From the NCBI GenBank assembly GCA_937871505.1, contig CALMPF010000035.1, positions 1-64,000 of the forward strand: a stretch of DNA of 64,000 nucleotides, given 5' to 3'. The notes under the pieces were generated by a model that was not told the DNA's origin, ran no database searches, and was given only the letters and a program-made list of their open reading frames with translations. Shown one piece after another: positions 1 to 22,635 of this stretch (positions are counted from its first letter, which is position 1; each line of letters starts with the position of its first letter). Source of the DNA: an uncultured Planctomycetia bacterium. GTDB lineage: Bacteria; Planctomycetota; Phycisphaerae; Phycisphaerales; SM1A02. The translations under genes were made by a program, and so were the position numbers.

Positions 1-374
1 CCGAGTGTCGCGGGGCCGCCTGGGCTATGGAAGACGGGGTTGGCGGAACGGACACAGGATGTTGTAACCAAGACCGCGTTCGGGACTCCGATGTGCGTCT
101 TGACGCCCACAATCTGCCGGGCGATTTCCACGCCGACCTTGTGGTCAGCGCGGTATCGCTTGCATTCCACGAGCCAGGAAGTCCGAAGCCCAGAAGGGTC
201 GGTGGTTAGCCCGAGGATATCGTAGCCGCCATCACGGGTAGGCGGAGTAACGCTGACCTTCCAGCCGAAGCCCGCGAGAAGCTCCGCCACCACGGCCTCA
301 AAGAGAACGGGATCCAGATCCCGGAGTTGCTCCGGGATCGTTGCGCAGCTCGCGATCGCCTCTTTAGCGTCCAT
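1..374 (-). CDS. Mrr-type restriction endonuclease domain protein, integron cassette (partial)
   Basis: The gene starts at an ATG (374) and runs off the left edge with no stop in 124 codons. The visible protein has the layout of an Mrr-type PD-(D/E)xK nuclease: an entry helix around DPVLFEAVVAELLAGFGW (residues 21-38), then TRDGGYDIL carrying the catalytic Asp, then WLVECKRYR with the E-x-K pair, and then a beta strand ending in VLVTTS. In the family this domain cleaves DNA, often modified DNA, and works in restriction or other defence. The start lies 10 bp beyond an attC site, so the gene is a mobile cassette. Its base composition is lower in GC than the rest of the window. The C-terminal part, including any partner domain, is outside the window. 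I am confident of the domain but not of the target. Confidence 0.82.
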   Translation of the reverse strand, partial: MDAKEAIASCATIPEQLRDLDPVLFEAVVAELLAGFGWKVSVTPPTRDGGYDILGLTTDPSGLRTSWLVECKRYRADHKVGVEIARQIVGVKTHIGVPNAVLVTTSCVRSANPVFHSPGGPATL

Positions 375-383
375 TCGTGGTGT

Positions 384-443
384 TGCGAACGCTTGAATTG
401 AGCCGAGCCGCGAAGCGGCTTCGGCTTGAGTGAATTGTTAGGC
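384..443 (-). mobile_element. Integron attC recombination site (59/60-base element)
   Basis: Read on the minus strand, the site opens with the core GCCTAAC (443-437). It continues through AATTCACTCAAGCCGAAGCC and a mirrored CGGCTCGGCTCAATTCAAGC arm, and closes at GCGTT (392-388). The arms pair into a long imperfect hairpin, as attC sites do, and the sequence is of the same type as the 59-base elements of antibiotic-resistance cassettes. The R' core reads GTTCGCA, which departs from the GTTRRRY consensus. The stop codon of the upstream gene (438-440) lies inside the R'' core, the usual cassette arrangement. The site belongs to the cassette at 438-1133 and separates it from the Mrr cassette. 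Confidence 0.88.
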
Positions 444-1133
444 CTTGTGGTCATAAGGCCCGGCGACGGTTTTCCCAAGCCGCGCTTGGAACAGGTCATT
501 GATAGCGCAGCTCGGATTGAGGCTGCTGAGCAATGGCCAAGGATCTTCGTCTAGTGGTGCTGCGCCGGCCCATGAGGCTGGATATCCCATTTCTTGAACT
601 GCATCAGCAAATGTCTTTCCGGAAGTCTGGAACGCTTCTTGAGTGAAGTACCACTGGGGATCGACGATTGTGCGGAACTTCACGTAGCAGTCGTAGACGA
701 CCTGAGTCACCGAGGTGAGATATGAGTCACATGCGCCCACCGCGTCAATCAACTGCTCGGAGCGTGGATGAACTAGAACGTGAGTTGGCGCAGTTCCGTC
801 GAATTGCGCAGCAAGGTACTGCCGGAGATGTGCGTGACCCACTTGGCCAATCGGGTTCTCTCCGGTCTTCTGTGACTTGTTTCTGAAGTCGACAAAGTGC
901 GGAGCAAGCGCGTCATGCTTAAGAGCTTCCTGGGCGGTGATATACCAGTCCTTGAACCCATCTACTTCGTGCAGGCAGGCTTGAAGTGCAAAAGTCACAC
1001 TGCGTGCCGCAGAGACGAACGCGCTGAAGCAGTACTCGGATTCCTGCGAGTGGCGGGAGGTCTTTGAAAGAAGATCGAAGAAATACTCGGCCTCTCTCAG
1101 CTTTTCCTCTACCAGTCCGAAGGAGCGTGTCAT
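438..1133 (-). CDS. Hypothetical protein, integron gene cassette
   Basis: This encodes 231 residues from ATG at 1133, six bases after a GTTAGGC core site. The stop lies inside attC, so the gene fills a cassette of about 750 bp with almost no spare sequence. The reading frame stays open further upstream, but that stretch crosses the recombination boundary and does not belong to the gene. I do not recognise a named family. The N-terminal half looks all-helical (EKLREAEYFFDLLSK, then a SAFVSAARSVTFALQACL stretch), and an FRNKSQKTG segment follows. This is loosely like helical HEPN-type proteins, but no diagnostic Rx4-6H motif is clear. The gene is GC-poor compared with its chromosomal neighbours, which fits recent lateral transfer. 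Confidence 0.72.
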   Translation of the reverse strand: MTRSFGLVEEKLREAEYFFDLLSKTSRHSQESEYCFSAFVSAARSVTFALQACLHEVDGFKDWYITAQEALKHDALAPHFVDFRNKSQKTGENPIGQVGHAHLRQYLAAQFDGTAPTHVLVHPRSEQLIDAVGACDSYLTSVTQVVYDCYVKFRTIVDPQWYFTQEAFQTSGKTFADAVQEMGYPASWAGAAPLDEDPWPLLSSLNPSCAINDLFQARLGKTVAGPYDHKA

Positions 1134-1138
1134 ACAAG

Positions 1139-1145
1139 GCCTAAC
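1139..1145 (-). other. Cassette boundary core site (GTTAGGC), possible attI or degraded attC
   Basis: The minus strand reads GTTAGGC just before the start codon of the cassette gene, matching the integron core GTTRRRY. The 60 bp upstream (1146-1205) contain no matching RYYYAAC partner and no attC-type mirror arm. This is therefore either an attI-like site at the head of the array or a decayed attC. No integrase gene is present to its right within the window. Confidence 0.5.
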
Positions 1146-1648: not shown

Positions 1649-1954
1649 CGGAAAAGGTGTCAGGATTCATTCATCGGCCGGGCGTCCTGCCCCCCCTCCT
1701 CTTCCACGGGCGCGATCGCCGGTGGGCCCTCCCGCGCCCGAAGAGCGGGTGGTGCTTGAAGCCACAACGCCACCTCGGCCTCTGCGGCGACGGCCGGAAG
1801 CGGCGTTCTGCGGCGCCAGATCTCGCAGAGCACCCACTTCCGACCGCCTCGCGATCAAGCCAGGCGGCGCCGTGGCCTTCACGTCCCGCACTCGCGGCCC
1901 GCAGAGCGCCTGCCGCGATCCGACGCGGGACAACGCATCCTGACACCTTTTCCG
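1649..1954. mobile_element. 306-bp element bounded by perfect 18-bp inverted repeats
   Basis: CGGAAAAGGTGTCAGGAT (1649-1666) recurs as its exact reverse complement at 1937-1954. The interior codes for nothing recognisable. The AAAGGTGTCAGGA core resembles, from memory, the terminal palindromes that accompany RAYT/IS200-type (REP-associated) transposases, so this may be a non-autonomous or decayed element of that kind. The inverted repeat is seen directly; the mobility and the RAYT link are inference. Confidence 0.5.
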
Positions 1955-21375: not shown

Positions 21376-22635
21376 TCACTCGATCTCCCGCGGCGGTTCC
21401 ACCGCGCTGACTTCCATGATGAGATCGCGGAGCTGCATCTCGAGCTTGGTGAGCTCGCTGAGCTCCCAGACGCCCCTCCGCGCGCCGCTCGTTCCGGTCT
21501 TCCCCGGCTTCTCGAGCTCCTCAAGCCCCTCGGTCATGGCTGGCCGCTTGCTGCGGTCGCCCTCGGCAGCGACCGCCGCTGTCATGCCGGCCAAAGCCGC
21601 CTCGACCCTGCGCAGCGTCGCGAGCGCCTGCTCAAGGCCCGCGGCAATCCGGCGGCGGCTCGCCTGGCCCTCGGCGGCGAGATCGAGCAGGAGCACGCGC
21701 TCGCCGGCGGCGATCGCGATCTCGGTCTCGAGCCGCTCGATCTCGGCGCCCTGGCGCTCGATCCGTCGCCCGCGCTCCGCGAGCGCCGAAGACGACCACA
21801 CGACCGCCGCGACCGCGATCGTCGTGGCGAGCGCTGCCGTGATCCAGCCAAGGGAGGAAGTCCAGGCGGCGCGAGTTCCAGCTCGCTCATCTCCCGAACC
21901 GAGCCGCATCGCCCTCGCGGTCGAACCACCGCGAATCCGGTCTTCGGAGGTGACGTCGCCGTGAGGGTCGAGGATCGGTCCGGCGTTCCACGTGCAGCTC
22001 GATGGAGAAGCGAGCAGAAGGCGAACCGGGGCGCGCTCCATCGCCGCGCTGAGCCGGGCGAGCGTCCGCGCGGCCGCGCGGGGTCCGTCGGTCTTGGCAC
22101 TCCAGCGCCCCTTGTCTCCTGCTGCGGCCTCCGGCGCCTGAAGGTCGACCTCGATGGCACCGTCCGCGATCGGGCCGATCGGCCATGCCGCAGGGTCGAG
22201 GAGGGCGGCGATGCGAGCCGGTGCCGGACCGGCGCCGTCGACGCTCTCCTGCGCGCCCGGCTCCCGCTCCATCGGTCCAGGCCCATCCGCCGTGGCGCTG
22301 GGCGCGTCGACTGCCGCCGGGCGGCCGATCAGCGCCGCCTCGATCCGGACCTGATGGGGACGTCCCAGCTCGTCGCTTCCCCCGTCGAGGATGCGGGCGA
22401 TGATCCACCCCAGCTCGTCGTCGCTGAGGAGCGCGAAGACCGCACGATGCCGGGCGCCGTGCTTCGAATGCGGGCGCCACGCAAACGCGGGCGCGATCGC
22501 GTCGGAAACGACCTGCGCGAGCGCGGCGCGGCGGGGATCGCCGCGCGCGGTCTCGACGGCGCGGTACGACATCGGAAGGCCCTCGGCGAGCGGACGCCGC
22601 GCGAAGACGACCACGGGGAAGCGGAGTCGACTCAT
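21376..22635 (-). CDS. Membrane-anchored coiled-coil protein next to the GTPase gene
   Basis: This encodes 419 residues. The N-terminal 110 residues are compact and globular (RLRFPVVVFARRPLAEG to ELGRPHQVRIEAAL), and a Pro/Ala-rich linker and a second small domain (about 145-215) follow. One transmembrane helix (262-283) leads into a long Glu/Arg-rich coiled coil (285-355) and a polar tail with a second short helix near the end. The globular start, with its GRPH pattern, is faintly like the N-domains of GTPase-associated proteins in bacterial conflict systems, but this is weak. The start overlaps the stop of the GTPase gene (ATGA), so the two proteins are made together and probably interact. 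I do not know its function. Confidence 0.65.
   Translation of the reverse strand: MSRLRFPVVVFARRPLAEGLPMSYRAVETARGDPRRAALAQVVSDAIAPAFAWRPHSKHGARHRAVFALLSDDELGWIIARILDGGSDELGRPHQVRIEAALIGRPAAVDAPSATADGPGPMEREPGAQESVDGAGPAPARIAALLDPAAWPIGPIADGAIEVDLQAPEAAAGDKGRWSAKTDGPRAAARTLARLSAAMERAPVRLLLASPSSCTWNAGPILDPHGDVTSEDRIRGGSTARAMRLGSGDERAGTRAAWTSSLGWITAALATTIAVAAVVWSSSALAERGRRIERQGAEIERLETEIAIAAGERVLLLDLAAEGQASRRRIAAGLEQALATLRRVEAALAGMTAAVAAEGDRSKRPAMTEGLEELEKPGKTGTSGARRGVWELSELTKLEMQLRDLIMEVSAVEPPREIE

Follow-up and report, generated by a model that had tools for sequence, protein, structure and literature searches.

Integron attachment sites found at the end of a draft contig raise the question of whether they mark the edge of a longer cassette array or something smaller that is complete in itself. 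We examined this question in a window, the whole stretch of 64,000 nucleotides that was analysed, which comprises bases 1-64000 of contig C35 (104,101 bp) from a 4.23-Mb genome in 72 contigs that is 93% complete. As base 1 of the window is also base 1 of the contig, the left edge is a contig end and not an arbitrary cut. An earlier reading of the sequence alone had placed the locus in a planctomycete-like genome; the first chromosomal gene encodes dockerin-like repeats, which agree with a planctomycete host, probably one near the Phycisphaerae. The features of the segment are as follows.

1-55, no strand assigned: terminus of an IS66-family element within mrr, and end of the contig; 54 bases are common to the starts of contigs C52 and C55.
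56-374, minus strand: 5' portion of a gene for an mrr-type restriction nuclease, interrupted by the IS at base 55 (Pfam Mrr_cat, 3.9e-16).
384-443, minus strand: attC of 60 bp, with R'' GCCTAAC at 443-437, R' GTTCGCA at 390-384 and the crossover between 390 and 389.
390-1144, minus strand: complete gene cassette of 755 bp with its own attC; its first six bases, TTAGGC, complement the R'' box.
438-1133, minus strand: cassette gene of 231 aa, family unassigned, perhaps HEPN-like, with its stop inside R''.
1139-1145, minus strand: core GTTAGGC at the 5' limit of the cassette; the genome has 11 copies of this heptamer.
1146-1215, no strand assigned: low-GC flank 5' of the cassette (GC 0.53), in which neither attC nor attI was recognised.

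A genuine attC site bounds a complete cassette

The minus strand from 443 to 384 reads GCCTAACAATTCACTCAAGCCGAAGCCGCTTCGCGGCTCGGCTCAATTCAAGCGTTCGCA and is a genuine attC. In a search of the whole 4.2-Mb genome it scored 57.2 bits (E 4.5e-9) with a covariance model that is biased towards this type of site, the viral training loci having been found by a pattern modelled on the window attC family. The model was built from 19 attCs with the window site left out, 18 from plasmid and viral-contig loci plus the aadA1 site. The score lies well over background and rules out a chance resemblance. Matches among 72,556 plasmids need no covariance model and therefore support the attC independently of this bias: the best DNA matches were cassette attCs with 90-94% identity, mostly those of fosE cassettes in class 1 integrons (~92-93% identical to the window attC), and identity to the aadA1 and catB3 attCs was 87% over 55 bases. 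The site also has the properties by which attCs are recognised, namely RYYYAAC and GTTRRRY boxes, an imperfect inverted repeat and a hairpin. The bottom strand of the attC corresponds to the plus strand here, and it folds better than each of 200 shuffles (z-score -3.4). R'' fits its consensus, and the in-place downstream R', GTTCGCA, retains just the GTT of GTTRRRY.

With bounds set by crossovers at G^TT, the interval from 1144 to 390 is one complete integron gene cassette. Its 5' core, GTTAGGC at 1145-1139 on the minus strand, is a heptamer that occurs 11 times genome-wide and would be expected by chance ~0.001 times per 1 kb on the required strand. Because the initial TTAGGC complements R'', the attC of the closed circle would read GCCTAAC...GTTAGGC, a perfect pair. 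One ORF fills the cassette; its ATG, at 1133, lies 11 nt from the crossover, while its TAA, at 440-438, falls inside the GCCTAAC box, so that the segment combines a single ORF, a start near the 5' core, a 3' attC and complementary ends, as a circularisable unit does. The cassette ORF has a GC of 0.55 and the mrr fragment one of 0.61, versus 0.72 in the remaining window. The sequence-only reading was borne out in its description of a canonical 60-bp attC, a stop codon within its core, a second GTTAGGC core and lowered GC; it had also proposed a covariance-model scan as a check.

The low GC persists for ~70 bp on the upstream side, and the foreign segment may therefore be larger than the cassette itself. 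To the right the sequence passes into high-GC contig DNA, and past 1145 the flank leads into intergenic DNA and then a galactose-oxidase-like gene at 2030. An element of ~305 bp with 23-nt inverted ends (GGAAAAGGTGTCAGGAT) lies at window positions 1649-1954, and C20:114837-115002 holds a copy of it with 89% identity over 166 bases.

The attC type and its distribution among planctomycetes

Ghaly et al. (2021, PMC8352920) described a Xanthomonadales-like attC type that includes the aadA1, catB3 and fosE cassettes; 99.4% of its occurrence in their survey fell within Xanthomonadales. Sequence identity to the fosE, aadA1 and catB3 attCs would place the window attC with this type. The cassette differs from those three in that its host is a planctomycete and its gene is not a resistance gene. 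Integron attCs have already been reported in Planctomycetes (PMC8352920); in our samples they were detected in 47 of 294 genomes of the phylum at E ≤1e-4 and in 23 of 298 genomes of the class at E ≤1e-3. Sites 89-95% identical to the window attC occur in other sampled planctomycetes, and this attC type is thus not unique to the present genome. Within the same order, one genome (G088:C1, ~1,346,573-1,349,681; L122) has a regular array of at least seven similar attC-like sites of 108-110 bp, spaced ~330-550 bp apart.

The cassette gene represents an undescribed family

Searches of Pfam, NCBIfam and PADLOC gave no significant match to the 231-aa protein, and the cassette gene is a member of an undescribed family. 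Its relatives, with 25-49% identity, are found in Alphaproteobacteria, Betaproteobacteria, one actinobacterial MAG and others. One plasmid relative adjoins a cytosine methyltransferase and an ATPase, and another adjoins an Eco29kI-type restriction-modification system. No attC was found near relatives at 13 loci, and the viral contigs searched contained relatives of neither this protein nor Mrr.

The predicted structure has an N-terminal helical bundle (pLDDT 76). HEPN domains were judged by an R-x4-6-H motif in an all-helical fold; at the motif position the window protein has RNKSQK, and two of ten relatives have RRVTQH and RNAEIH. This pattern suggests a HEPN-like domain that would lack the catalytic histidine. 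No known fold was established for the model: Foldseek returned no significant match, and VIA-align recovered generic helical bundles only, with HEPN structures at Z 6-7, no better than unrelated helical bundles.

An IS66-family element ends the contig within mrr

Beyond the attC, a gene with the Mrr_cat domain (PF04471) begins 15 nt past the crossover, in the same orientation as the cassette. It shares this domain, including an ECK motif, with Mrr-type restriction endonucleases, and differs from its planctomycete homologues in being truncated by the IS and in lacking their N-terminal part. The domain match reaches profile position 88 of 115 and breaks off at base 54, against the IS. The contig contains neither the 3' end of mrr nor any attC that the gene may have had. 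The gene is cut and probably inactive. The sequence-only reading had taken the nuclease to be carried by a cassette; the Mrr-type domain stands (3.9e-16), whereas mrr has not been established as a cassette, because it would start with TTCGCA where TTRRRY is expected, its 3' end is lost, and no attC was found within ~1.5 kb of its homologues in 11 planctomycetes.

Several observations identify the contig end. First, contigs C52 and C55 both open with 54 bases that match window bases 2-55 exactly, and beyond them all three sequences diverge. Second, the last 18 of these shared bases, GGTTGGCGGAACGGACAC, occur at seven places in the genome including C35, the others being the starts of C29 and C46 as well as C52 and C55, a position near the end of C51, and a position on C15 after a transposase ORF of the IS66 family (DDE_Tnp_IS66, 6.4e-83). 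Lastly, 8-bp duplications pair C46 (AGCGAAAC) with C52 (GTTTCGCT) and C15 (CGATGAAG) with C55 (CTTCATCG). The shared terminus, the IS66 transposase and the 8-bp duplications together show that the end of C35 is an IS66 terminus lying inside mrr. The far side of this copy would be expected to carry the terminal repeat GGGGTTGGCGGAACGGACAC, then the duplication AACATCCT, then the 3' end of mrr; a partner end with the expected start AACATCCT was absent among the seven places found. This multicopy element, with its 8-bp target duplications, breaks the assembly at several contig ends (C15, C29, C35, C46, C51, C52 and C55).

Search for an integron around the cassette

No integron integrase was found in the whole 93%-complete genome using the model TIGR02249 at its cut-off of 265 bits. 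Two matches on other contigs reached 76 and 67 bits; in both, the match is broken between model positions ~175 and 240, and we read these recombinases as Xer-like. Upstream of 1145, positions 1146-1260 gave no attC match and no unusual fold, and no attI was recognised 5' of the cassette; attI has no general model, and a decayed one would escape recognition.

The locus thus has one attC, no attC or attI upstream, only GTT at the downstream junction, no intI, and an IS66 terminus at its left edge. These results do not support the view in the sequence-only reading that the segment is the edge of a cassette array continuing past base 1. Of the refuting conditions that it had set, intI is found neither on the contig nor elsewhere in the assembly, but the attC score lies far over background; further attC sites are absent from C35, with one present elsewhere in the genome on different contigs. 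In the terms of IntegronFinder, no intI stands beside an array as it does in a complete integron; at least two close attCs without an integrase, which define a CALIN, are not present before the contig ends at the IS; and a single attC without an integron-integrase, on a contig ending at base 1, corresponds to a SALIN. Like a SALIN, the window has one attC with its cassette and no integrase nearby or in the assembly; the second attC of the genome is unlinked to this locus, and the contig end may hide further attCs of the element.

A second attC and other candidate cassettes in the genome

The sole other attC recovered by the covariance model lies at the start of a contig (C61:52-110; 39.2 bits, E 5.9e-5). 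This attC is apparently split at its R'' box by a MITE, one copy of which seems to supply the starts of both C54 and C61, each contig starting within one of its ends; their matching CTAA leads us to infer that they are the two sides of a single MITE insertion. CTAA is present at the MITE junction on both contigs and at both junctions of some other copies, including a well-bounded copy of 180 bp. With the MITE removed, C54:51-56 joined to C61:52-110 would read GGGCCTAACAGCGGCATGC...GTTCGGC, and a SpoIID-domain gene on C54 has its stop codon within the R'' box of this joined attC. A near-identical attC is present in another planctomycete (L086). Cassettes have therefore probably reached this genome on two or more occasions, at places that are not linked. 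We rejected the idea that an array continues on C54 and C61, as the 50 bp they share are the ends of one MITE and not attC repeats.

The MITE-like family itself is ~180 bp long, with inverted ends CACTMCAGCGC that often occur as plus/minus pairs ~169 bp apart; this end motif occurs 195 times in the genome, versus 8 for the reversed pattern. One copy lies at L024:18619-18798 (~78.6 kb on C35), and a single motif is found at window position 22098.

We mapped every one of the 11 GTTAGGC sites and inspected the sequence around those lying beyond the window; integron-like surroundings were seen only at C34 and at C54/C61. The site on C34 (C34:75471-77054; L020:5472-7054) is a toxin-antitoxin cluster with BrnT/BrnA genes between GTTAGGC and GCCTAAC, with the BrnA stop in the box, beside DUF433 and DUF5615 genes. 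The attC model gave this unit just 15.5 bits (E 0.4, not significant), and it was not accepted as a cassette; it is perhaps a decayed one.

Origin of the cassette

We favour, with about even confidence, a single complete cassette outside any detectable integron, that is, a SALIN in a planctomycete host, captured probably at an attG-like site beside mrr. The target would have been a G^TT site upstream of the low-GC mrr gene, approximately CACCTG^TTCGCA and attG-like (CACCTGTTCGCA), with which the attC of the circular cassette, as a folded strand, would have been recombined by an integron integrase that worked in trans or has since disappeared. If the junctions are CACCTG and TTCGCA, the uninterrupted mrr locus would read CACCTGTTCGCAACACC. 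An IS66-family element would later have entered mrr and split off its 3' end, and the assembly would have broken there. The integrase step, a target other than attI, and an mrr gene that was resident rather than a second cassette are what we infer; the lack of an attC or unusual fold upstream of 1145 and the GTT-only junction fit insertion at a G^TT site that is neither attI nor attC. A search of 100 relatives gave no empty site, either flank being matched over short stretches only.

Insertions at attG sites are known to us from Loot et al. (2024) as that work is cited in PMC12901181, PMC12444791 and PMC11023631. As far as these citing papers portray them, such cassettes likewise have G^TT boundaries with no recognised attI or attC at the target, and the window would differ from them as a natural planctomycete case in which the empty target site is reconstructed. 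A fuller account, which we regard as doubtful, would make the locus a natural cross-phylum capture of the attG type, in which an integrase, trans-acting or since lost, placed a cassette with a Xanthomonadales-like attC and an undescribed HEPN-like, defence-associated gene directly upstream of a restriction nuclease already resident in an integron-less planctomycete.

Several points count against a lone cassette: mrr is placed and oriented as the next cassette would be and has lowered GC, the low GC extends upstream of the cassette, the relatives show no empty site, a decayed attI would be overlooked, and intI and more cassettes could lie in unassembled sequence. It is possible, at a tentative level, that the locus is instead a remnant array (CALIN) in which mrr is a second cassette starting with TTCGCA, its attC and any further cassettes lie beyond the IS66 element, and intI has been lost. 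The 15-nt distance from the crossover, the shared orientation and the GC of 0.61 all suit such an array, restriction genes, like those for abortive infection, are known to occur in cassettes (PMC12444791), and the genome holds a second attC. However, TTCGCA departs from TTRRRY, no attC of mrr is seen, its homologues in 11 planctomycetes have none nearby, and nothing array-like lies 5' of the first cassette, and an array fits the facts less well than one cassette at a G^TT site.

We consider it unlikely that the segment is the edge of a larger, complete integron, as first proposed from the sequence, with intI and the remaining cassettes outside the assembly. With 93% completeness and no contig continuing past the IS, the assembly could lack these parts, and draft assemblies are known to split integrons, attCs at contig borders often belonging to complete ones (PMC9024848); but the multicopy IS66 element explains the contig break, and the side of the first cassette, where intI and attI would be expected, is assembled through the next genes and contains neither. 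That the segment is a chance resemblance or a chimera of foreign and planctomycete DNA, as its position at a contig end and its deviating GC might allow, is scarcely credible in view of the E value of 4.5e-9, the ~92-93% identity to known cassette attCs, the matching boundary boxes, the left-end IS that is multicopy in the same genome, and the continuation of the right end into high-GC contig DNA.

Implications

The locus carries a practical lesson: a contig edge beside an attC is no proof of an array, and at this site the edge was formed by the end of a transposon. The 231-aa cassette gene is a candidate for anti-phage testing, since two of its plasmid relatives neighbour methyltransferase or restriction-modification genes. 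The locus also adds to the integron cassettes known from genomes in which no integron is detected, here within a class that seldom has attCs (23 of 298 sampled genomes), and the cassette is a genuine but ordinary trace of genes passing between distantly related bacteria.
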